From a virus, in the IMG/VR virus record IMGVR_UViG_3300042892_005961, positions 147,169 to 211,168 of that record: a stretch of DNA of 64,000 nucleotides, one strand, 5' to 3'. Shown one piece after another: positions 1,044 to 64,000 of this stretch. The number at the start of each line of letters is the position of its first letter. Position 1 is the first letter of the stretch. Below the pieces are notes generated by a model. The model saw only the letters and a list, made by a program, of their open reading frames with translations. It did not search any database and was not told the origin of the DNA. The translations under genes and the position numbers were made by a program.

Positions 1044-2354
1044 TTAATCACAAGGACAAGTTACGTTTGTAAATGATGAGAAGTATATTGCTGATGGATA
1101 GTTTGTTGCCATATAAGCACTATCTTTATTCGTGTCTATTCTTGAACAACATTCACTATTTATCGTCACAAAACTTAAATTACCCGCACTATAATCTACA
1201 TAATATATTGCTGTTAAATCACATCTCTCATACACATCATATGTTTGCGGTGTAGGAGTTGGTGGTAAAGGGGTTGAAGTTGGTGGTGCTCCTGAACAAG
1301 CTGTACAAGCTGTTTGTGCTGTTCCTGTTTGTGCCGAACCATCTCTCATAAATTCTCTTTCATCAGTACCATCAGAAACCCAAAATGTAGTGTTATTAGT
1401 CATATCACCATACACGCTACCATACATTGTGGAAGATAAACCTTTTACTTTTGTTAAATTACATAAAGACGTACCTACAACCGTAATATTAACATTACTA
1501 TATTCACCACCAGTACATGCTGTTGGTCCGTTAACTAAACTAACATAACCACTAAACGTAGTTTCAAATGGAGTTGGTTGTGGTGTTGCAGTTGCCGGTA
1601 AAGGAGTTGGTGTTGTAGGACAACTACAAGGCGTTGATCCATAAGATATATCCGTAATACTTGCACCAACTGCGAATAATGAACCATTTTGAATACAATC
1701 ATTTATTACTTGTGGTCCAATACCAAATGTTAAATCAATTGTCTCACCGCAACAATCAATATATCTAATATCACCTCCCGTATCAACCTCAAATTGTACA
1801 GATGTTACACAATTAGGTGTTGGGGTTGGGGTTACAGTTGCCGGTAATGGGGTTACAGTTGCCGGTAATGGTGTTACAGTTGCTGGTAATGGGGTTACTG
1901 TTGCCGGTAATGGGGTTACAGTTGCTGGTAATGGGGTTACTGTTGGTGTATTTGTGGGAGTTGCCGTTGGTACAACTGTTGGTGTGGGAGTTGGTGTGGG
2001 AGTTGGTGTGGGAGTTGGTGTAGTCGGCATTCTTATAGTTAAATTATTATAATCAACACATTCCACACATATAACAGAGTCATCATCTTTTCCATTAAAA
2101 TTTGATGGTATCACTCTAATTGTTTTTATTCCCTCGGGAACAACTACATATGTACCATTTAAACTTGATCTTGGAATATTGGAATATCCAACTAAAGGAA
2201 AATATTTTGACGAGTCAGATCCTGAAAGGGATCCTGTACATAAGGATCCAGAATTGTTGGTACAATCCTCTAAACTTCCCGTACAGGCATACAAATCAAC
2301 ATTTAATATTGATACTCCTAAAGTAAATCCTGTTAATCGTATTGTATATGACAT
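1044..2354 (-). CDS. Modular Cys-rich protein with Pro-Thr linkers, probable tail adhesin
   Basis: 436 residues. Residues 1-108 form a Cys-containing N-terminal domain (begins MSYTIRLTGF). Residues 110-178 are a Pro-Thr linker holding five copies of TPLPATV. Then come module A (about 179-245, with the string FGIGPQVINDCIQN), a short linker, module B (about 262-352, with TNNTTFWVSDGTDEREFMRD), another linker and a final Cys-rich module (about 370-436, ending NVTCPCD). Modules A and B recur in the 710-residue protein at 10508-12640. No signal peptide or membrane segment is visible. The start follows a TATTTATA box by 5 nt. The role as a surface-displayed tail or baseplate appendage is inference from linker architecture and neighbourhood; no enzymatic motif is seen. 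Confidence 0.75.
   Translation of the reverse strand: MSYTIRLTGFTLGVSILNVDLYACTGSLEDCTNNSGSLCTGSLSGSDSSKYFPLVGYSNIPRSSLNGTYVVVPEGIKTIRVIPSNFNGKDDDSVICVECVDYNNLTIRMPTTPTPTPTPTPTPTPTVVPTATPTNTPTVTPLPATVTPLPATVTPLPATVTPLPATVTPLPATVTPTPTPNCVTSVQFEVDTGGDIRYIDCCGETIDLTFGIGPQVINDCIQNGSLFAVGASITDISYGSTPCSCPTTPTPLPATATPQPTPFETTFSGYVSLVNGPTACTGGEYSNVNITVVGTSLCNLTKVKGLSSTMYGSVYGDMTNNTTFWVSDGTDEREFMRDGSAQTGTAQTACTACSGAPPTSTPLPPTPTPQTYDVYERCDLTAIYYVDYSAGNLSFVTINSECCSRIDTNKDSAYMATNYPSAIYFSSFTNVTCPCD
1838..1943 (-). repeat. 21-bp tandem repeat coding TPLPATV x5
   Basis: Five consecutive 21-bp units encode TPLPATV in the Pro-Thr linker. Units differ at silent positions (gcc/gct and gtg/ggg variants on the plus strand), so the peptide is conserved while the DNA has drifted. 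Confidence 0.9.
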
Positions 2355-2359
2355 ATTTC

Positions 2360-2367
2360 TATAAATA
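2360..2367 (-). promoter_or_regulatory. TATTTATA box upstream of the gene at 2354
   Basis: Coding-strand TATTTATA, 5 nt before the ATG. It lies just downstream of the terminator that closes the preceding gene, so a fresh transcript is expected here. Candidate late promoter element. Confidence 0.5.
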
Positions 2368-2389
2368 GTATTATATAGAATTTAAACAA

Positions 2390-2415
2390 AAAACCCCTTA
2401 AAATAAAGGGGTTTT
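2390..2415 (-). terminator. Rho-independent terminator after the 188-residue gene
   Basis: A 10-bp perfect stem (AAAACCCCTT paired with AAGGGGTTTT) around a 6-nt loop, followed on the minus strand by a T-rich run. It sits between the stop of the gene at 2438-3004 and the start of the gene at 2354. The symmetric A/T flanks mean it could also act on the plus strand, but no plus-strand gene ends here. Confidence 0.85.
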
Positions 2416-2437
2416 AATATTGTTTTGTTTTTAAATT

Positions 2438-3004
2438 TTATGTTGAGCAAACATTAATGTCCGTTACAAATCCACTTGCTGAAATTTGTCCTGTATATGT
2501 TGCAAATCCACTGTCGGTTCTATAATAAGCGTGATATTCATCCTCTCCACCATAACCACTTGTTAAACCAGCATCAGTAAAGAATTGTTCTACATTGGCT
2601 GCATTATTTGTTGCGGCAAATACTTCAGTTAAGAGACTTTGAGGTTCTCCACCACCACCAGTAATAGCAGCACAAGCCTGTCCAATATTCGATTGTGTAA
2701 CTGATGGTCCTAATTGATATGAATATGATGTTACTACAGGTGTTGGACTCGGAGTAGGTGTTGGGGTTGCTGCTGCCGGTGTCGCCAGCCACGGGGTTGT
2801 AGTTGTACAAGTACCTGTACTTGCAATTGTTCCCCCTGTTATAGCATCATTAATACCGGTAATTGTATGACCTGCTGTTAATTGGGCTTTTGTAATACCA
2901 GAGGCTAATTCTGATACAACGTTAGCATTTGTTGTTCCTGAAATATTAAACGGACCCGCTGCAGTTCCTGAGGATTCCGATTTTAATGTAAATGTTACTG
3001 TCAT
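2438..3004 (-). CDS. Small modular virion protein with Pro-Thr linker
   Basis: 188 residues. An N-terminal beta-type segment (residues 1-72) is followed by a short linker ([15 protein letters not shown]) and a C-terminal module (about 90-188) beginning TSYSYQLGPS with [11 protein letters not shown] and GEDEYHAYY. The same module, clearly diverged, ends the 1683-residue protein just upstream ([29 protein letters not shown]). The gene therefore looks like a separate carrier for a module also found on a baseplate protein. It has its own TATTTATA box 16 nt before the ATG and a strong terminator after the stop, so it may be transcribed alone. Function unknown; display on the virion is inference. 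Confidence 0.75.
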   Translation of the reverse strand: MTVTFTLKSESSGTAAGPFNISGTTNANVVSELASGITKAQLTAGHTITGINDAITGGTIASTGTCTTTTPWLATPAAATPTPTPSPTPVVTSYSYQLGPSVTQSNIGQACAAITGGGGEPQSLLTEVFAATNNAANVEQFFTDAGLTSGYGGEDEYHAYYRTDSGFATYTGQISASGFVTDINVCST

Positions 3005-3020
3005 ATTATTTGTTTCTTTT

Positions 3021-3028
3021 TATAAATA
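3021..3028 (-). promoter_or_regulatory. TATTTATA box upstream of the gene at 3004
   Basis: Coding-strand TATTTATA, 16 nt before the ATG, in the 42-bp gap after the 1683-residue gene. Candidate late promoter element. Confidence 0.5.
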
Positions 3029-3046
3029 TCTGTTTATTTTGTTTTA

Positions 3047-6000
3047 TTAAGGTTGTTCAGCACAAACACTTTTGTCCGATACCTGACCAGTATATGAAAT
3101 TCTTCCTGAATATGGTGATCCTCCACTATTTAAAGCGAATGAGTGATATTCATTTTCACCGGTATATACGTTTACTAAATTAGGATCTGTAAAGAATTGT
3201 TCTACATTAAATGGTTGATCTGCCGCCGCATATGCTAGAATATAGAAATCCTGACCGTAATTTTGACAAGCCAAACTCGATGATGTATAAGATGGTCCTA
3301 ATTGATAAGCATACGATGTTGCAGGTACAGGTGTGTCTGTAGGTACCGGTGTTGCCGTTGGTGGGAATGGTGTTGGTGTTGGTGATTCTGTTGGTACGTT
3401 TGTTGGTACTGCTGTTGGTACGTTTGTTGGTACTGCTGTTGGTATTGCTGTTGGTACGTTTGTTGGTACGTTTGTTGGTACGTTTGTTGGTACGTTAGTT
3501 GGTACTGCTGTTGGTACGTTAGTTGGTACTGGTGTTGGTGTTGGTCCACAATATGTACAATCACTTGATATGTTACAAGTATTACCACATTCAACATCAG
3601 TTAATAAACCTGAATTAATAATTGGAGCTGTTCCACCTTGTAGACAATGCTGTCTACTTGTACCAGGTAATAAATTAATTGATTGTTCAGTTCCATTACA
3701 ATTTGTTATTGTATAGTTTCCTGTTGTTCCACCTTCATTATAAATTGTCCAACATATACAAGGTAATGGTGTCGAAGTTGGTATTGCTGTTGGTACGTTT
3801 GTAGGTACTGCTGTTGGTACGTTTGTTGGTACTGCTGTTGGTATTGCTGTTGGTACGTTTGTTGGTACGTTTGTTGGTACGTTAGTTGGTATGTTAGTTG
3901 GTATGTTAGTTGGTATATTGGTTGGTTCTGGTGTATTAGTTGGGACCGCCGTTGGTACGTTAGTTGGTATGTTGGTTGGTATGTTGGTTGGTATATTGGT
4001 TGGTACTGCTGTCGGTACTGCTGTTGGTACGTTAGTTGGTAATGGTGTTGGTGTGCTGTAGATAACATCAACATCAACATTAAAGTTACAATCTGGCGTT
4101 GGAGTTGGAGTTGGTGTTGTAGTGTTAGTAGGTGTTGGGGTTGGTGTATTTGTCGCTGGTAATGGCGTAGGAGTTGGTGTATTTGTTGCGGATTCCGGTA
4201 ATGGTGTTGGAGTATTTGTATTTGTTGGTGTAGGAGTTGGTGTACTATAGATAACATCAACATCAACATTAAAGTTACAATCTGGTGTTGGAGTTGCGGT
4301 ATTTGTTGGTGTTGGAGTTGGGGTATTTGTTGGTGTTGGAGTTGGGGTATTAGTTGCTAATTCTGGTGTATTTGTATTTGTTGGTGTTGGGGTTGGTGTT
4401 GGTGTACCATATATAATGTCCACATTTATTTCAAAATCACAATTTGGTGTAGAAGTTGGTGTACTAGTTGGTGTTGGAGTATTTGTATTTGTTGGTGTAG
4501 GAGTTGGTGTACTATATACAACTAAAACATCAACATTAAAGTTACAATCTGGTGTTGGTGTAGGTGTTGCAGTGTTAGTAGGTGTTGGAGTTGGGGTACT
4601 ATAAAATATTTCTACGTCAACAGCAAACTCACAATTTGGTGTGGCTGTTGGGGTTGGTGTTGGGGTTGGTGTACTAGTAACAACTAAAACATCAACTAAG
4701 AAATTACAATTTGGTGTAGGTGATGGAGTAGGTGTTGGTGTACTAGTAACAACTAAAACATCAACATTAAAATTACAATCTGGTGTTGGGGTTGGTGTTG
4801 GGGTTGGTGTACTAGTAACAACTAAAACATCAACATTAAAATTACAATCTGGTGTTGGGGTTGGTGTTGGTGTATTTGTTGCAGGTGATGCCGTTACTGT
4901 TGGTGTTGGGGTGGAAGGTAATGGTGTTGCAGTTGCTGGTAATGGTGTAGCTGTTGGTGTGGCTGTTGGTGTTGGTGTGTTTGTTGGAGTTGGTGTTGGT
5001 CCTGGCTCATATATCGCTAATCCTCCACTAAATCTACAATCTTTCACATCATTTTGACCAATTGATACATATCCATAATCTAAATAATTATTTACTGTAC
5101 AATCATTTGGACCGTATTTGTAAGATGTGAATTTAATTTTTTCACGTCCTTCATTATCTATGAAAAATTCATATGATATTATTTTTTGTTTTGTTGTTCC
5201 TGTAATCGATGAATTACCAATTTCGGTTCCGTATTGTGTGTTTTTACCTTCTCCATCTATAGTTGATCCAGAATAGGTGTTAATATATGTAATTGTATTT
5301 TGTATCGCCCTTTTCCACAGTATTTTTAATTGTTGGTCTATTTCACTATAAACCGAAAGGTTATTAGTTGTACCTCCACTATATAATTTAACACTAATAC
5401 CATTAGTTGTAACGGTATTATCGTTATTAAATGTTAATGTTGTTCCAGTTAATGAAGTTGCTCCACTGATTAAAACATATGTACATCCTGTAACATTTGT
5501 TGTTGTGTTTAATGCAGAAGCATTTTCAGGGTCAGTCATACCTGAATAAACTATACCGTCAATTTCAAATATTGGATAAAGTTTAACATAACCATCGTGT
5601 TTTGTTTCCCCATCTTCATCAATTTCAATAGAAAAACCAAGATCATCGTCAGCCTGTTGTATTAAATAATCAAAATAACTTGTAAATCCTGTTGGTATTT
5701 CTAAATCAAAATTAATGTGGTCTTCCGTTTCTGTAGGTTGACATCCATATCTATATTGATATTTTGATCTACCAAAAATATTATTTGAAATTAAATTACC
5801 TCCCGTCCATAAAGTTGTTGCAGGAATAATTTGATCGATAACACTTGTCCAATAAGGACTCATTTTTTCAATAAACAAATTAATGTCAGGAAATGTGTAT
5901 GCTTTGTTAGGTGAAAAATCTCTAGTAATATAATCTTGATAGATGTCCTCTAATGTAATATAATTCTTCTTATATTTTATTAAATTAGAATTTTTAATTT

Positions 6001-55456: not shown

Positions 55457-55813
55457 TTAAGAAATATTGATGTATAATTTTTCTTTAATAGGTAGAATAA
55501 GGATATTACCGTTATCAAATGTAATAGTTACTTTACCCTCAAACCTTCCCACTTGTGATGTATGTTCGGTTGTAAATCTATGTGTGATATAATATTCGTC
55601 AGTTGTATAGTTATACTTCTTTGTTCTATTGGTTAAAAGACATTCAGATCCTAACACCATAGGTTCGCCCGTTGTAACATCAGACATCTCAAAGGTGATT
55701 GTTGTACCACTTGCTAACATTTCATTGAATGATGACTTATCGTTTTTACCGTCGTCAATCATTCTCATCTTTAATATTGGGTCAGTTGCCCCTTGTCTTA
55801 TGTGAAATTCCAT
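55457..55813 (-). CDS. Small beta-sandwich virion protein, BppU-N-like
   Basis: 118 residues. The opening MEFHIRQGATDPILKMRMID, then GTTITFEMSDVTTGEPMVLG and VGRFEGKVTITFDNG matches the general pattern of the N-terminal domain of baseplate upper proteins (Ile-Arg-Gln-Gly-Asp/Ala-x-x-Pro, later a Gly-x-Phe/Tyr-x-Gly-x-Val/Phe-x-Ile strand). Such domains attach receptor-binding parts to a baseplate. It has a TATTTATA box 4 nt before the ATG. The family link is tentative. Confidence 0.65.
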   Translation of the reverse strand: MEFHIRQGATDPILKMRMIDDGKNDKSSFNEMLASGTTITFEMSDVTTGEPMVLGSECLLTNRTKKYNYTTDEYYITHRFTTEHTSQVGRFEGKVTITFDNGNILILPIKEKLYINIS

Positions 55814-55856: not shown

Positions 55857-56501
55857 TTAATTGGTGGTTTCTATTGTTTTCTGAAAATACCTTTCAATTC
55901 TTTTACTTAATCGGACTCTTACATCGGTTGTAGTTCTACCCACCACATCGTATGGTAATATAAAACCAAAACTTAGGAAAACTCTTCTTGATTTGAATTC
56001 GTTCGTCCAATGTTTGTATAGAGATGCCTCAAATCCGTATAGATCACCTTGATTTATTTTTATAACATCTTTATCTAAAAATAATTCGTAATCCTCTGAT
56101 AAAACACTAATATTACATTTATAATTAACATGTCCTTCAACTGCCGCGTCATAGTGAGGATTTATCTTTCCCCCACTATTCATATCTACCGCTTGTAAGA
56201 AGATATGATTTTTAGGAAATTCAAATTCTTCTGCAATTCTATCAATAATGGTATCAATCAAATCAGGTAGTTTATCTTTTGAAACATCTGATACCGCTTG
56301 AAACTTTGTAATATAATTTGTAAAAGGTGTATCCGAAATATCAAACATATAAGTTTTACCTTTTAGTTCTTTTGATAATTCCGAAAGATGATGATTAGCA
56401 CCATTACCACTATGGTCAATTGAGTCTATCCAATTTATTATTTGTTTGGACTCGGATGGTGTAATAAATCCCCTTTTAATTTTATAATTATTATTTTTCA
56501 A
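55857..56501 (-). CDS. 2-oxoglutarate-Fe(II)-dependent oxygenase
   Basis: 214 residues. The double-stranded beta-helix metal site is visible: H116 and D118 in INPHYDAA, H164 in ASLYKHWTNEF, and the 2OG-binding arginine R172 or R173 in KSRRVFLSFGF. This is the His-x-Asp...His...Arg layout of prolyl-hydroxylase and AlkB-like enzymes. Substrate cannot be read from sequence; options are a nucleobase, a host protein or the Pro-rich phage proteins. The start overlaps the upstream 82-residue gene by 11 bp. It is near, but not next to, the Pro-Thr-rich adhesin gene at 59094-62822. Confidence 0.82.
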   Translation of the reverse strand: MKNNNYKIKRGFITPSESKQIINWIDSIDHSGNGANHHLSELSKELKGKTYMFDISDTPFTNYITKFQAVSDVSKDKLPDLIDTIIDRIAEEFEFPKNHIFLQAVDMNSGGKINPHYDAAVEGHVNYKCNISVLSEDYELFLDKDVIKINQGDLYGFEASLYKHWTNEFKSRRVFLSFGFILPYDVVGRTTTDVRVRLSKRIERYFQKTIETTN

Positions 56502-56754: not shown

Positions 56755-59028
56755 TTAGTCTATTGGTTCGGTTATTTGTTGTGCTATATACCATTGACCA
56801 TTATTATCTAATGCAGTTAATATAGGTGTTCCATCAAACCTTCTTTGAATAGTTTTATTGTAATATTCATAAACCATTGGTGTTGTGGTAATTGTATCTA
56901 CCGTCAAAACTAAATCAGTAGTTCCACCAAATGAACCAGAAGCAATTGTTATTGTATCACCTGTTAGGTATAGTTTTCCAATAGTTGAAGCTTCAACATT
57001 ACTAACAAGAGTTGACGCAACAGTGATAGTAAATACTGAATTTACTCCTGCCCCTGATGATGTTCCAGTTACACCTGTATAAACTCCATCGGTTCCGGTA
57101 GTTGATGGGTATGAATAATCAATAGGGTTTCCTAAATATGCGGTAAAATCTATTCCATTTAGAGGAGTTTCTATTCTATTAAATTGAAAATCGTTACCTA
57201 CTGTATTGTTTTCAAACTCATCCCCAATATTATTATTATAGAAATATTCTCCAATTGTGTTGCCATAAAAATAGTTTCCAATTACATTACGCCTACTGTC
57301 ACTGCCACCAAATCCAAAACCGTCACCGATGTTGTTACTATAAAAACTATTTCCAATTTGATTATATCTAAAATCATCTGTTATTCCGTTATCAAAAAAA
57401 TTATTTAATATAAAATTATTTTTAAAATTTAATCCTATATCATTTGATTGAAAGGTATTTCCAATGTTATTATTTGTAAAATAATTTTCAATCTCATTTC
57501 CCCCAAAGTCGTTCCCAATTTTATTATCATCAAACTGACCCACTATTAAATTCGCCTTAAATTCATTACCAATATGATTGTCCTCAAAAGTTGAACTATT
57601 ATTAATTGTCCCTAATGTATTATTGTGAAAACCAAACCCAATTGTATTCCTATAAAAAGAGTTATAAATATTATTTGTATAGAAATTATCCCCCACCGTG
57701 TTATTATTAAAATCATTTTTAATAAAATTACTGTTAAAATTACCAACTACGTTATCATCAAAACTAGTTTGTATAATGTTTCCATAAAAAGAGGATTTTA
57801 ATATGTTATTGGCGAAAGAGTCGTCACCAGTGTAAAAATTACCATAGAATGATCCCATTATTAAATTATTATCAAAATCATTTGAGTCATTATCACCTAA
57901 ATTGTTGTTATAAAACTCATCTTGAATAATATTATTTGTGAAATCACATATAATTATGTTATCGTAAAAATCTGAAGATATTGTATTGTAATCAAAATCA
58001 TTATCAATTATGTTACCATAGAAATTACCACTAATTGTATTATTTGCACAATCATCATTAAAGGTATTGTTTCTAAAATTACTTCCAAAAGAGTTATCTC
58101 TATATGGGCCATCTCTGAAAACGTTGTTTGGAAGTAAGAAAGTATATTCTTCACCAATAGTGTTTGCAACTCTATTACCACAAGTATTGTTAAAACATTC
58201 ATCATAACTTGTGAATGTATTGTATTCGGTAAATCCTGTGTTAGAAATAATATTGCTTTGTTTGTAAGACATTCGAGTATCAATTTCGCGGTCTGTATAG
58301 AAAGTGTCATTGACACTATAAATTGTGCGTCCCGTAACAGTCATACTCGTTTCTGAATCAATAGAAACAATTTGATAAAAATTTACACCATACGCCGTAT
58401 TTGGATTCACGATACCTATAACTTCTCCGGTAGTTCTACCTGTAAAATTTGTTCCTACACCCGTTACAACACCAACACTATTAATACTTACTTTTCCGTC
58501 ATAAATTTCCTCGGCACTATATGCGTCATATCTCTTAAATAAAACTTCTCTAAAGTCATAATCAAAGGCATTTCCTTTATCGTCAATTCTGTATGTAATT
58601 CTACCAAACGCAGCACCTGCTGTAACTTCAGTAGATGTAAAATATGGATCATATTGTATTGTATCACCTGAATATTCTGGTTGATATGCGTGTTCTGAAA
58701 TTTTATCAACATCAGTTGCCAACACAAGTATAGGTGCCACATTACCTTGTTTGTAATTACCTGTTTCAATTGTGTTACCATTATGGTCATAATCAGGTTG
58801 GTCGTAACAAGTTTTGAAATCTGTGATTAAATAATGTTTACCTGGTGTTAATGTTGCACCTGTTAAAAGAGAGTATAACTCACTATGTGTTACTTCCTCA
58901 TATATTGAGACACTTAGTAAATTACTTACGCTTACTTTTTTAGTTTCTCCGTTGTTAACTATTGGTAACATATCTCCCGATAAAGGTTCGGTAAGTTCAT
59001 TTAATTGTGAAATTTTTTGATCTGCCAT
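56755..59028 (-). CDS. Tail fibre/appendage with nonapeptide repeat solenoid
   Basis: 757 residues. The N-terminus (ADQKISQLNELTEPLSGDML, then PIVNNGETKKVSVSNLLS) is the common attachment motif of phage tail fibres. Residues 45-300 are beta-rich. About 310-617 consist of some 33 nine-residue units of the form F-x-x-N-x-(I/V/L)-(G/I)-x-(D/N/S), for example FYGNTIGEY and FENNTVGND, with a few insertions of 2-6 residues. A C-terminal domain (about 620-757) follows. The repeat predicts a solenoid with stacked Phe and Asn ladders. The gene has a TATTTATA box 21 nt upstream. Host-binding fibre is inference. Confidence 0.75.
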   Translation of the reverse strand: MADQKISQLNELTEPLSGDMLPIVNNGETKKVSVSNLLSVSIYEEVTHSELYSLLTGATLTPGKHYLITDFKTCYDQPDYDHNGNTIETGNYKQGNVAPILVLATDVDKISEHAYQPEYSGDTIQYDPYFTSTEVTAGAAFGRITYRIDDKGNAFDYDFREVLFKRYDAYSAEEIYDGKVSINSVGVVTGVGTNFTGRTTGEVIGIVNPNTAYGVNFYQIVSIDSETSMTVTGRTIYSVNDTFYTDREIDTRMSYKQSNIISNTGFTEYNTFTSYDECFNNTCGNRVANTIGEEYTFLLPNNVFRDGPYRDNSFGSNFRNNTFNDDCANNTISGNFYGNIIDNDFDYNTISSDFYDNIIICDFTNNIIQDEFYNNNLGDNDSNDFDNNLIMGSFYGNFYTGDDSFANNILKSSFYGNIIQTSFDDNVVGNFNSNFIKNDFNNNTVGDNFYTNNIYNSFYRNTIGFGFHNNTLGTINNSSTFEDNHIGNEFKANLIVGQFDDNKIGNDFGGNEIENYFTNNNIGNTFQSNDIGLNFKNNFILNNFFDNGITDDFRYNQIGNSFYSNNIGDGFGFGGSDSRRNVIGNYFYGNTIGEYFYNNNIGDEFENNTVGNDFQFNRIETPLNGIDFTAYLGNPIDYSYPSTTGTDGVYTGVTGTSSGAGVNSVFTITVASTLVSNVEASTIGKLYLTGDTITIASGSFGGTTDLVLTVDTITTTPMVYEYYNKTIQRRFDGTPILTALDNNGQWYIAQQITEPID
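57180..58090 (-). repeat. 27-bp coding repeat array (nonapeptide FxxNxIxxx)
   Basis: About 33 units of 27 bp, diverged at DNA level but with Phe, Asn and Ile/Val/Leu kept at fixed positions. It lies within the fibre gene. Confidence 0.85.
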
Positions 59029-59093: not shown

Positions 59094-62000
59094 TTAACTA
59101 CCGAATGTTATTGATATTGGGTCGGCATATACAAATGGATTAGCTGATGTTACTGTTTGTGTGGCAGGTCCCGTTTGTATTGTAAAGATTCCGCCAATAG
59201 TATCAGCAAAGAACGTACCTGGTGTTGTACTTGTGTATGTTACAGTGTTAGCACCTTGTGTTATAGATATTGTACCACCATTAGTTGCCAATTCAGTAAA
59301 TTGAGTTGTGTAGTTGGTACCATTACTATCATCTAAATTGAAATAAATTTCATTAACACCGTTTGATTTATTTGGATTAAATGTTTCAGTTACTTCATTA
59401 GTTTCATTATTTCTTATTAAAAATATAGAATTACCATCTGATAACGGTGGTTGTGCATCAAAAATACCTCCTTCATCACTATAGAAATACCACGCACCTA
59501 TTCCTCCACCTATTGATGTTGGTGTGGGTGTCGGTGTTGGTCCTCCTAATCCTATACCTACAACGACATCAATCGAACCGCCAGACCATGTGTAAGTATA
59601 TGTTCCATTAGTTAAACCTAAACTTGATAATGTTTGACCTGTAAATGTTTGACTACTTGAAATATTTGCACCTGAAGTATAACCTGTTGGTACAATCAAT
59701 AAGTATGGTGGTGCCATATTCATGATTACACCAAACGATTGTCCAGTACCTGAACTATGTGGTAATCCAGAACCACTTCCAAAATTACTTGGTACAGATG
59801 TGAATCCACTATATGAACTACCTGATGAACCACTAGCCCCACAAACAAATGTTGCATTACTAATACCTAAACCTCCATTTCCAAATGGTCCAGCACTTGA
59901 TGATACTAAAGTTAATCCGCTAAGGTCAACTGTTCCCGATGCAGACATAACAACATTTGAACCAACTTCAGTTATTGTAACCGTCATTGGTGCTGAACCG
60001 GATGTCGGTGTAGGGGTGGGAGTACTTGTTGCTGGCACCTCTGTCGCCGTTGGTGTAGGAGTTGGTGTACTTGTCGGAGTAGGAGTTGGTGTTGAACATA
60101 AAATATCCGTACAATCCGTTACTATAGTTGCATTATCTAAATCATAATCATAATAAGGTCCGTCATCATTTCCTGCGATTGTATAACATATATTAGTATC
60201 AACATTAAATGTAAAACCAGACAAATTTATATCTGGGTCTAAACTCCTACCATATTTGTTATCACCTAAATTACAATTCAATAAATAATAGTAGTAATAA
60301 ATTGGTGTTGGTGTAGGAGTTGGTGTACTTGTTGCCGGTAAAGGTGTTTCAGTACTTGTCGGTTCTGGAGTTGGTGTACTTGTTGCTGCTAAAGGTGTTG
60401 GCGTTGGTGTATCTGTCGGTACCCCTGTTGGTACTGGTGTTGCCGTTGCAGGTTCAGGAGTACTTGTTGCCTCAGGTGTTGGTGTAGGTGTGTCTGTTGG
60501 AACGTTTGTTGGTTCTGTTGTAGATGTAGGTGTTGGAGTTGGTGTCGATTGACCTGAAACTAATATATCTATATAGAAAACCTCCCCAAATGTAAATGTA
60601 GAAACAGGCGAACTTTGTACTAATGATAATTTAGTTGAATCTAAAAAATACGAATAATTAAAACTGTCATATACCATAGCGCTATTTGTACCTGAATATA
60701 TTGCACTATTTCCATTTTGACATAATGTTACAGTAAATGAAGTACCTACTGCATTTCCGAAGTATGTTGTTTGGTCTGTTCCATCATTATCAATTTCATT
60801 AAAATATAATACCGAAGAATTAGTACCTAATATATTAACGAGATTTAATGCTGTTGCCGGTATAATATTTGATAACCAAAGTGATTCACCTGAACTTGGT
60901 GTTGTTAATAAATTTGACAACACATAAGGTTTACCACTACACGATGCAACTGGTGTTGGTGTTGGTGTCGGTGTATCTGTTGGACCTGATGTTGGTTCAG
61001 GAGTTGGTGTCGGCGTATCCGTCGGTGGGACTTCCGTTGCCGTTGGTGTAGGAGTTGACTCAACTGTTGGTTCAGGTGTTGGTGTATTAGTTGCCGGTAA
61101 TGGTGTTGCGGTCGATGTACAATCAAATGTTATTGATTTAGCAAAAACATCTGTAGGATTATTTCTATCTCTAATTGAAACCCAAAGAGTACCACTAGAA
61201 AACGGTGGTACAATACCTGTTGTTACAAAATTGTTTGGATTTGGTAATTCAAACCAACTGGTTTCTGCTAACGCCTCTTCTTCTGTATTAAATAAATTAT
61301 TACTTCTATCAATTACTCCCGAACCACCACCGTGATTAGATGTACTAATACGTCCACCAGCTGTACAATTATAACTGATAGTGAAATCTAAAGGTCCAAC
61401 CGTTATTGTAGGAGTTGGAGTACTCGTTGTTGTTGGTGTTGGTGTTGCCGTTGCCGGTTCAGGTGTTGGTGTTGCTGTTGGTGTGGAAGTTGGTAATGGG
61501 GTTGGTGTTTCAGTAGGTGCTAAAGTTGCTGCTGCGTAGAAATTAGCTTGTAATGTTGCCGTACTACCTGTTACATATACAATCGTAAACTTAGAATTTG
61601 CTGCAGGTAAATTAATTCCGTCTCCTGACCAATACCAAAAATCACTTAAACCATAATCTAAATTAATAGTGTATTGTTGATTTTTAATAACACCCGCACT
61701 TACATTTGATGTATATGTTTCACCATCAAAAATAATACTTGGTGATCCTGGTGGTACAATAATAGTTAATACCGCACCTTCAGGTGTTGATGTTGGTGTT
61801 GTTGTTGGTGTAGGTGTTCCTTCTGGGGTAGGAGTTGGTGTAGCGGTTGCTGGTGTACAGTTAACACCACTTACAAATTGACTATCGGTAAACTGAGTTA
61901 AGAAATATAATCCGCTACCATCGGCAAGAATGTAATACCCATCAAATAGTAATGAAACTGTTTCATTTGAATTTGAACTTACGTAAACATAATCAAAAAT

Positions 62001-62822
62001 TTCACCATCGACATAACCGATAATTGAATCCTGTGCGGAACAACTTGAATTCATTAAACAATCAAGTGCACTACAAGCGGTGGTTAAATCATTAAAAAAT
62101 GGACCCGTATTATCGGTATTACCAATTATTGTAATTTGATATGGATGATTAATTGGTTCATTCGTTGGTGTTGGTGTACTTGTTGCCGGTACAGGTGTGT
62201 CTGTTGGTACGGGAGTTGGTGTACTTGTTGCCGGTAAAGGTGTAGGAGTATCAGTTGGTACCGATGTTGCATCTGGCGTTGGTGTAGGAGTTGGTGTTGT
62301 TGATGTAGATTCTAATAAAATATTATCACCATTTTCTTGTAATAAACTATCACCATTCTCTTGTAATAAATTATCACCTAAATTATCAGTTGGTGTAGGT
62401 GTAGGTGTTGCCGTTGGTAAATTTGTAGGTGTAGGGGTTGGTGTTGGTAAATCTTCACCATATGTTGTAAAATAACCGTTATCATTTAACCAAGTTTTAG
62501 CATCACTACCATTTGTAAACGGTTCTAAACCATTTGTTATTGGTAAAACGTTTAATAAATCTAATAAAGATTGTTCGGTTAAATCTGTTGATCTCCAAAA
62601 ATTAATATAAGAATCTTCATCGACAGGTGTTGGGTGGTCACCTGTTGGTACTTGATTGGCAATAACATAACCTAACTCTTCATCAGGTCCCATCCACCAT
62701 TTAACCCCACCTGGATCTTGTGAATAATCTTGATCTGAAACACCTATTGCAATGTTTCCAATTTGTATTGTTCCGTCTATGGTGGAACCTGTGTTGTATG
62801 CGAAGGGTCTTGTTGTTGCCAT
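59094..62822 (-). CDS. Large multi-module adhesin with Pro-Thr linkers
   Basis: 1242 residues. N-terminal domain (1-120) with IGNIAIGVSDQDYS, then GGVKWWMGPDEELGYVI, a form I know from first-gene products of Bacteroidota phage fibre clusters. Then about seven beta modules (roughly 224-320, 350-427, 474-570, 627-757, 840-907, 944-1090, 1107-1242) are separated by Pro-Thr linkers (TPTPTP, PLPATSTP, EPATATP types). The first linker region includes the repeat LLQENGD twice. Modules differ from each other and several carry Cys pairs. No enzymatic motif was found. A TATTTATA box ends 7 nt before the start. Likely a virion surface adhesin (inference). Confidence 0.7.
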   Translation of the reverse strand: MATTRPFAYNTGSTIDGTIQIGNIAIGVSDQDYSQDPGGVKWWMGPDEELGYVIANQVPTGDHPTPVDEDSYINFWRSTDLTEQSLLDLLNVLPITNGLEPFTNGSDAKTWLNDNGYFTTYGEDLPTPTPTPTNLPTATPTPTPTDNLGDNLLQENGDSLLQENGDNILLESTSTTPTPTPTPDATSVPTDTPTPLPATSTPTPVPTDTPVPATSTPTPTNEPINHPYQITIIGNTDNTGPFFNDLTTACSALDCLMNSSCSAQDSIIGYVDGEIFDYVYVSSNSNETVSLLFDGYYILADGSGLYFLTQFTDSQFVSGVNCTPATATPTPTPEGTPTPTTTPTSTPEGAVLTIIVPPGSPSIIFDGETYTSNVSAGVIKNQQYTINLDYGLSDFWYWSGDGINLPAANSKFTIVYVTGSTATLQANFYAAATLAPTETPTPLPTSTPTATPTPEPATATPTPTTTSTPTPTITVGPLDFTISYNCTAGGRISTSNHGGGSGVIDRSNNLFNTEEEALAETSWFELPNPNNFVTTGIVPPFSSGTLWVSIRDRNNPTDVFAKSITFDCTSTATPLPATNTPTPEPTVESTPTPTATEVPPTDTPTPTPEPTSGPTDTPTPTPTPVASCSGKPYVLSNLLTTPSSGESLWLSNIIPATALNLVNILGTNSSVLYFNEIDNDGTDQTTYFGNAVGTSFTVTLCQNGNSAIYSGTNSAMVYDSFNYSYFLDSTKLSLVQSSPVSTFTFGEVFYIDILVSGQSTPTPTPTSTTEPTNVPTDTPTPTPEATSTPEPATATPVPTGVPTDTPTPTPLAATSTPTPEPTSTETPLPATSTPTPTPTPIYYYYYLLNCNLGDNKYGRSLDPDINLSGFTFNVDTNICYTIAGNDDGPYYDYDLDNATIVTDCTDILCSTPTPTPTSTPTPTPTATEVPATSTPTPTPTSGSAPMTVTITEVGSNVVMSASGTVDLSGLTLVSSSAGPFGNGGLGISNATFVCGASGSSGSSYSGFTSVPSNFGSGSGLPHSSGTGQSFGVIMNMAPPYLLIVPTGYTSGANISSSQTFTGQTLSSLGLTNGTYTYTWSGGSIDVVVGIGLGGPTPTPTPTSIGGGIGAWYFYSDEGGIFDAQPPLSDGNSIFLIRNNETNEVTETFNPNKSNGVNEIYFNLDDSNGTNYTTQFTELATNGGTISITQGANTVTYTSTTPGTFFADTIGGIFTIQTGPATQTVTSANPFVYADPISITFGS
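59510..62470 (-). repeat. Dispersed Pro-Thr linker repeats between adhesin modules
   Basis: GT-rich tracts on the plus strand at about 59510-59545, 60000-60090, 60300-60545, 60945-61110, 61405-61520, 61770-61855, 62160-62300 and 62385-62455 encode the linkers. They resemble the tracts at 1560-2020, 3340-4990 and 10750-11550 in sequence and composition. Confidence 0.8.
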
Positions 62823-62848: not shown

Positions 62849-64000
62849 TTATAATCCGTATTTTGATTTGTCTGCGTTATAGTTATTCAAAACTTCAGTT
62901 GATGTTAATGCACTACTATATATTCTAGTTATACCAATCTTTCCATCAAACCATTGTGCATATTCACCTCCATTGTATGAACCAATGTATAAGTTTGTAG
63001 TCGTATTTAATATACTAGTCAAACTATGTCCTACACTACCGATACTTGTACCATTAACAAATGTTTGGAATGTATTTGCAGCAACATTGGTAAAAACGTA
63101 AACTATTTGATACCAATTGTTTATTGTTGTTGCGGTGTAATTTATACTATCTTGAATTAAAGTATCTCCCGAACCCGAACCCGAACCATATTGTGCATAA
63201 AATCTTGTACCAAAAGTTCTAATACTATAACCCACATTTGTCGAAAGTCCACCTGCATTAAATTTACCAAGTACTACATCGTTACCCGACACCGCCTGAT
63301 TGACCCAAACTTCTACTGTCCAATCACCACTTCCTGGTTCTAATGCTGCATTATCTGCAACTGAAATTTGTGATGAAGAACCATTGTATGTAAAGTATGG
63401 TGATGTGTGTGAGATATTACTCATTGTTCCATGTCTACCATTGCCACTCAAATCCGTAATGGTTGTTCCACTACCAGGATAAGATGATACATTAGAAGGG
63501 TCATAATGTAACACCAAATTACTCGTAGTAAATCCGTCCAATGTAACACTTGGTGTTGGGGTTATTGTGGGGGTACTCGTAGGCGTTGGTGTAGGAGTAG
63601 GTTCAACAAATCTCGGAGCCAAATAATTATATTGTTGTGTTATTTCAGATAAACTTAATTGTCTATTATAGAAATACATGTTGGCAATATGTCCCCAAGG
63701 TTGAGCAACAATATCATTATTACCCCATCCCCAATGTGTGGTTCCACCAGCACCCGCACTGATTGTGCTACCCACTTGGGAACCATTTATGTAGAATGTT
63801 TGAGACGTACTTGTTCCAACTACCGCATACTGAACCCAAACACCGGCAGATGCAACATCATATCCCGAACTTTTCAAAGAAGTATCCCAATATCCTAATG
63901 TGTTTGATGCGTTAGGGATTGTAATTGGTGTGTATTTTGGCGAGTTTGTGTAAAGTAATGTTCTAAATCCAGCAGTGCTTGTTATTAATCTTGCCCAAGT
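62849..64000 (-). CDS. LamG / concanavalin-like lectin adhesin, partial (N-terminus beyond right edge)
   Basis: The frame is open to the right edge, giving 383 visible residues ending SKYGL. Two LamG-type beta-sandwich domains are seen. The first is incomplete and ends with IANMYFYNRQLSLSEITQQY. A Pro-Thr linker (about [18 protein letters not shown]) follows. The second domain spans LVLHYDPSNVSSYPGSGTTI, then DLSGNGRHGTM, WTVEVWVNQA, NNWYQIVYVFT and IGITRIYSSALTSTEVLNNY. This order is typical of Laminin_G_3 domains, which often bind glycans. A start at 63877 would be a TTG inside the domain and is not credible, so the true start is outside the window. Confidence 0.8.
   Translation of the reverse strand, partial: TWARLITSTAGFRTLLYTNSPKYTPITIPNASNTLGYWDTSLKSSGYDVASAGVWVQYAVVGTSTSQTFYINGSQVGSTISAGAGGTTHWGWGNNDIVAQPWGHIANMYFYNRQLSLSEITQQYNYLAPRFVEPTPTPTPTSTPTITPTPSVTLDGFTTSNLVLHYDPSNVSSYPGSGTTITDLSGNGRHGTMSNISHTSPYFTYNGSSSQISVADNAALEPGSGDWTVEVWVNQAVSGNDVVLGKFNAGGLSTNVGYSIRTFGTRFYAQYGSGSGSGDTLIQDSINYTATTINNWYQIVYVFTNVAANTFQTFVNGTSIGSVGHSLTSILNTTTNLYIGSYNGGEYAQWFDGKIGITRIYSSALTSTEVLNNYNADKSKYGL

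Follow-up and report, generated by a model that had tools for sequence, protein, structure and literature searches.

A nine-residue repeat in a likely adhesin of large phages is predicted to fold as an 18-residue beta-solenoid

The 757-aa protein encoded on the minus strand at 56755..59028 of the window (the whole 64,000-nucleotide stretch analysed here, which spans bases 147169-211168 of a virus record 211,168 bases long) carries 33 units of nine residues with the consensus N-x-I-x-x-x-F-x-x. The explanation that best accounts for the data as a whole, and that we hold to be probable, is a four-sided, right-handed beta-solenoid whose turns comprise 18 residues and which serves as the rod of an adhesin.

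The nonapeptide repeat and its family

The 211,168-base record contains the solenoid gene once; no second copy of it, of its N-terminal tail, of its N-terminal domain or of its C-terminal region was found there. Alignment and translation delimited an N-terminal tail (aa 1-43, ISQLNELTEPLSGD..., 58900..59028), and the alignment of relatives a conserved N-terminal domain (about aa 44-172, YLITDFKTCYDQPD..., 58513..58899). The nonapeptide solenoid (aa 312-620, 57169..58095), placed by the repeat parse, as its units 13-45, from N312 to about aa 620, lies between a beta-rich linking region (aa 173-311, 58096..58512) and a beta-rich C-terminal region (aa 621-757, 56758..57168), both assigned by DSSP from an AlphaFold2 model whose confidence is partly low in the linking region; all these parts are on the minus strand. 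For the solenoid protein itself, no usable match came from Pfam (none at E ≤ 1), NCBIfam or PHROGs.

The motif F..N.[IVLF] was found 31 times between aa 318 and 619, compared with a mean of 2.0 (maximum 8) in 2000 shuffles of the whole protein and a mean of 2.5 (maximum 9) in shuffles of the repeat region. The self-match curve peaked at lag 9 (95), lag 18 (85) and lag 27 (59), the other lags up to 30 giving 11-44. The nonapeptide repeat announced at this place in a preliminary description of the DNA is thus confirmed, as 33 units within one minus-strand ORF. Phe and Asn had both been called invariant there, which is right for Asn among nine close sequences (kept at 27/27 units) but not for Phe, since the Phe position is occupied by Cys in unit 2 of the solenoid and by Phe in 86% of 1173 family units, the others having C, V, Y and further residues; over these 1173 units the invariance of Asn is built into the unit pattern used for parsing. 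We found also that unit 13 is one residue short (NVVGNFNS), a feature absent from the preliminary description.

A scan with the solenoid protein returned 34 loci, a scan with an alignment of 21 relatives returned 189 relatives, 80 of which were kept, and a repeat-only scan of viral contigs returned at least 120 stretches. Among the stretches listed, the N-terminal domain was detected at E ≤ 1e-3 in 89 of 115 distinct repeat ORFs, and the solenoid therefore travels with that domain; 22 of the 26 listed repeat ORFs without it touch the edge of their stretch. Contigs with family members reach 436 kb, and the solenoid is common to many large phages. We found no description of the nonapeptide repeat in the openly licensed literature.

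Outside viral contigs, one of 26 pattern matches in a genome collection was a relative, located on a MAG contig labelled Chitinophagaceae (L116). At positions 1132-3900 of this contig, by our reading of the sequences, two neighbouring genes that encode the N-terminal domain of the family together with divergent repeats of nine residues (V for F in the first) lie upstream of a lysozyme-like ORF. A solenoid profile matched nothing in 294 genomes of the family of this MAG, in a weak search that also missed the MAG's own diverged copies (VxxN and not FxxN). Phage PAU, whose host is placed in Sphingobacterium, Bacteroidetes, in one report (PMC3738902), has the N-terminal domain as well, in its gp99 (E 1e-7 with L116) and without nonapeptides. 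Two solenoid genes occur in one locus in L025 (1-1386 and 3803-7051) and in L112, which suggests duplication of the adhesin gene.

Coil size and predicted fold

Coil size was read from the sequences by comparing runs of regular units at unit lags 1-6 over the six variable positions. The first set, 47 non-redundant ORFs, comprised 297 runs and 1158 units after removal of identical runs. Identity at lag 2 was 1.53 compared with 1.13 in within-run shuffles (z 11.7, 0/1000 shuffles); it was raised at lag 4 (z 3.6), lowered at lags 1, 3 and 5 (z -8.8, -3.8 and -3.8) and not significantly changed at lag 6 (z 0.8). In a second set of 54 further ORFs, with less than 35% of 7-mers in common with the first, identity was again raised at lag 2 (z 7.2, 0/1000 shuffles) and lag 4 (z 2.7) and lowered at lags 1 and 3 (z -3.2 and -3.3), lags 5 and 6 being near zero. 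The variable positions match at even and not at odd unit lags, therefore two nonapeptides make one 18-residue turn. The beta-helix coil of two units put forward in the preliminary description is borne out by both sets, and by the AlphaFold2 model.

Structure prediction of the monomer, proposed earlier as a check, gave a confident solenoid. AlphaFold2 modelled the solenoid alone (25 rows) with a pLDDT of 89.6 and a pTM of 0.87, and the full protein (21 rows) with a mean pLDDT of 73.4, the solenoid having mostly 71-96; the model leans on the repeat alignment, in which MAFFT may have slipped register. DSSP over 27 regular units, numbered from Asn as position 0, assigned strand to positions 1, 2, 6 and 7 in 27/27 units, to positions 3-5 in 11-22%, and never to positions 0 and 8. 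With the strands x-I and F-x in each nonapeptide and two units per turn, the modelled turn would hold four strands. Between these short strands, corners of three residues (often G-x-x) and of two residues (x-N) would alternate, and the model has Asn at a corner of each unit, the arrangement that an Asn ladder would require. Each turn would then have four narrow sides; by the side-chain directions that we infer, Ile and Phe would stack in the interior and the Asn residues would align at two of the corners. The result would be a tower of the pentapeptide type with sides of five and of four residues in alternation.

The solenoid model aligned structurally with EtpA (Z 20.9 over 314 aa, 2.8 Å), the Pam1 tailspike (Z 20.7 over 320 aa, 3.3 Å), MpAFP (Z 16.8 over 261 aa, 3.7 Å) and the pentapeptide protein HetL (Z 14.8 over 198 aa, 2.5 Å). 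The beta-helices that fill these lists, with Z of 11-21, we take to be right-handed, and the repeat would accordingly fold as a right-handed beta-solenoid of two nonapeptides per turn. Because high Z is common among repeats, the alignments indicate a class, stacked beta-helices, and not a relative. With a threshold of E ≤ 1e-3, a Foldseek search of the PDB returned nothing for the isolated solenoid and one match for the full-length model, the phi297 tailspike (E 1.5e-4, prob 0.72), so the nearest fold is unsettled. The best structural match in BFVD was A0A8D9CJP0 (E 3.9e-4, prob 1.00), an oddly labelled entry with a poxvirus name. Compared by sequence with PDB chains, the solenoid gave no convincing match. 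ParM-like PDB profile matches, of which the best (E 6e-4) was with a ParM hybrid chain and had neither of its two stretches below E 0.07, were taken as composition and rejected.

By number of sides, the nearest architecture to the model would be the pentapeptide-repeat tower (Rfr; PF00805; HetL, QnrB1, AlbG, MfpA), with which it shares a stacked tower, four short strands per turn, one hydrophobic residue stacked per side, and corner loops. In HetL, loops are inserted at the corners (PMC8145042). The published tower has four sides of five residues (PMC8145042, PMC7337050), that is 4 x 5 = 20 residues per coil, whereas the solenoid has 18, with sides of four and five and Asn at two corners. Using the definition of PF00805 as at least 8 contiguous consensus pentapeptides at period 5 (PMC8145042), we found a longest run of 1 in the solenoid protein and in all 47 family ORFs. 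The four strands per coil of pentapeptide proteins were found in the predicted model only (27/27 units, two units per coil). The earlier statement that the repeat is not a pentapeptide repeat is therefore correct for the sequence but not for the architecture, which is predicted to be close to the pentapeptide tower.

Two other beta folds were weighed against this four-sided tower. The RTX beta-roll has a nine-residue unit, two units per turn and stacked parallel strands as well, its nonapeptides being described as forming a parallel roll of two sheets (PMC6891781). A roll of this type, perhaps without calcium, would have one strand per nonapeptide and a flat 18-residue turn, and the alignment with the calcium-dependent MpAFP (3p4g; Z 16.8 over 261 aa), a bacterial ice-binding beta-helix with a long regular coil of similar size, speaks for it. 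We judge such a roll rather unlikely, given that GGxGxD was found in 0/47 family ORFs and that each unit of the solenoid has two hydrophobic positions (I and F) and two DSSP strands, not one. MpAFP itself is, by its entry title, a Ca2+-dependent antifreeze protein, and the solenoid is without a convincing sequence match to it or to any other PDB chain.

The other is a triangular three-sheet beta-helix of the tailspike or pectate-lyase type with an unusually short coil. Tailspikes (Pam1, Sf6, P22) are likewise phage appendages with a stacked beta-helix rod, and the fold lists are full of tailspikes and polysaccharide lyases, such as Pam1 with Z 20.7 over 320 aa. The right-handed beta-helices of these tailspikes have longer coils. 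The solenoid differs from them by an exact nine-residue sequence repeat, by the lack of a recognised enzyme family and by four strands per predicted 18-residue coil instead of three sheets. Two halves with two strands each give a turn of four sides, not three, and the Foldseek TM-scores are low, at about 0.1-0.3, which makes a three-sheet helix distinctly improbable. A further three-sided fold, the knotted solenoid described from Brevundimonas (PMC13123833), is also unlike the nonapeptide solenoid.

The four-sided solenoid would thus be a variant of the known beta-helix towers, of the right-handed beta-solenoid kind, for which the prediction is confident and consistent. A wider claim, that the nonapeptide defines a solenoid class of its own (a quadrilateral 4+5 beta-helix in which every second corner bears the Asn ladder) and is the extensible adhesin rod of large phages from a wide group, probably Bacteroidota phages, is put forward only tentatively; the part of it that concerns the fold is likely.

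Insertions and variation of the solenoid surface

The length of the solenoid is changed by three insertions of 2-5 residues and one of 7, together with a one-residue deletion. The parse and DSSP placed GDNDSND at the three-residue corner of unit 8 (aa 378-384, 57877..57897), TGDDS at that of unit 10 (aa 400-404, 57817..57831) and the GTINNSST loop at that of unit 18 (aa 473-480, 57589..57612). A GFGFGGS-type loop (GFGFGGSD stretch), supported in addition by the alignment, lies at the two-residue corner of unit 28 (aa 572-580, 57289..57315); all four are on the minus strand. The three loops cited as examples in the earlier account (GDNDSND, GTINNSST and GDGFGFGGSD, the last containing the GFGFGGSD stretch) are real, and TGDDS is added to them. 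In the alignment of relatives the GFGFGGS-type loop is kept across much of the family.

The four insertions of the window protein all fall in even units (8, 10, 18 and 28). Across 34 proteins of the family, 45 pairs of successive insertions are separated by regular units only, and in 42 of them the distance is an even number of units; this strict filter was picked after a first count and many of the 45 pairs are homologous (22 at distance 2), so that the nominal p of 9e-10 is overstated. The first count, made with a loose parse that ran into non-solenoid flanks, gave 275 of 768 pairs even, no excess over chance. As insertions are mostly an even number of units apart, most loops stand on the same side of the coil, which agrees with a turn of 18 residues, and the single loop-bearing face foreseen in the preliminary description is retained in the form "mostly", within the limits of homologous pairs and a post hoc filter.

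The idea that these loops form a variable receptor surface was not supported. From 15 independent sequence pairs, pN was 0.009 at N0, 0.154 at position 1, 0.054 at I2, 0.083 at position 3, 0.113 at position 4, 0.201 at position 5, 0.023 at F6, 0.197 at position 7 and 0.218 at position 8, compared with 0.132 in the insertion loops and 0.096 in the part before the solenoid. Positions 5, 7 and 8 (0.20-0.22) exceed the loops 1.55-fold (bootstrap 1.23-1.86), the loops are thus the slower part, and the GFGFGGS-type loop is conserved. This pattern of conservation fits the four-sided model, with core and corner Asn fixed and the outward positions free. Diversifying selection at positions 5, 7 and 8 was considered on account of a pN/pS above 1 in a set of nine close sequences, two of which duplicate others in the set, and was not retained, this ratio not being repeated in the 15 pairs (0.49-0.80). 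In these pairs pN/pS was below 1 at every unit position, with no sign of diversifying selection.

Gene neighbourhood and adhesin role

We compared 46 gene contexts (45 loci and the window), several of which end early at contig ends; the window and L002 are near relatives. Next to the solenoid gene, on the same strand, are a Thr-Pro-rich (PTPTPT) protein of 1242 aa (59094..62822) and a second Thr-Pro-rich (PTPTPT) protein with a LamG lectin domain (62849..64000; PF13385, E 1.6e-22), and Thr-Pro-rich genes lie near the solenoid gene in 21/46 contexts. Both are probably further adhesins. LamG lectin domains are reported in tail fibres of jumbo phages (PMC7824862). The window also encodes a T4-type baseplate protein (PF12322, E 4e-7), a baseplate wedge protein and a head-tail adaptor match. 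A 118-aa ORF at 55457..55813 (minus strand) belongs to a cluster (c1) common to Thr-Pro-rich proteins in relatives and, by its look, may be a baseplate-type domain.

A further minus-strand gene, at 55857..56501, has an invariant HxD...H...R, which we take to be the signature of the 2OG-Fe dioxygenase family, and likely encodes a 2OG-Fe(II) dioxygenase; it has no Pfam match and only a weak prolyl-4-hydroxylase match (E 0.1). Since dioxygenase-like relatives adjoin or are near the solenoid gene in 27/46 contexts, one might speculate that this neighbour hydroxylates the ladder Asn, or Pro of the Thr-Pro-rich fibres, as a modification of the virion.

The ends of the solenoid protein are exchanged between relatives. 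The N-terminal tail is replaced by Mtd_N in L013 and by collagen-like Gly-X-Y in L010, which is also linked to PA14, and the counterpart of the C-terminal region in a relative matches cyanophage tail-fibre and structural proteins, one match being annotated tail fiber. Tail-fibre PHROG matches were obtained on single members only, through variable parts. In L015 (1-2640), an upstream neighbour of a relative has collagen repeats (PF01391, E 3e-76). From the exchangeable ends (Mtd_N, PA14, collagen-like) and the C-terminal tail fiber match, an adhesin is the likeliest role, and the linked modules and neighbours make its most likely form a rigid rod belonging to an adhesin of the tail fibre or the baseplate. 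The name of tail fibre used in the preliminary description is likely on the same grounds, from which we also infer the location in the virion.

An injected or host-expressed protein outside the virion, for example a gyrase-protecting DNA mimic, was considered as well. Some pentapeptide proteins are such mimics, the predicted fold resembles QnrB1, AlbG and MfpA, and a DNA polymerase gene (c4) is nearby in 16/46 contexts. This role appears very unlikely: the protein is large, is made of several domains and has the kind of exchangeable ends (Mtd_N, collagen-like, PA14) that phage adhesins typically have, its gene is adjoined by Thr-Pro-rich and LamG genes, and in L116, the MAG contig, two such genes lie upstream of one that is lysozyme-like. 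As an adhesin rod, the solenoid would space and present the binding parts, its outward positions 5, 7 and 8 tolerating variation and its insertions pointing mainly to one side.

The solenoid would add to the beta-solenoids a class defined by its sequence, with statistics of the sequence giving the size of the coil ahead of any structure. A regular 4+5 tower would also be of interest for the design of solenoids, as an example of how shorter sides can be accommodated in the pentapeptide fold. For large uncultured phages, the repeat, with at least 120 stretches in viral contigs, would be a recognisable marker for adhesin genes.
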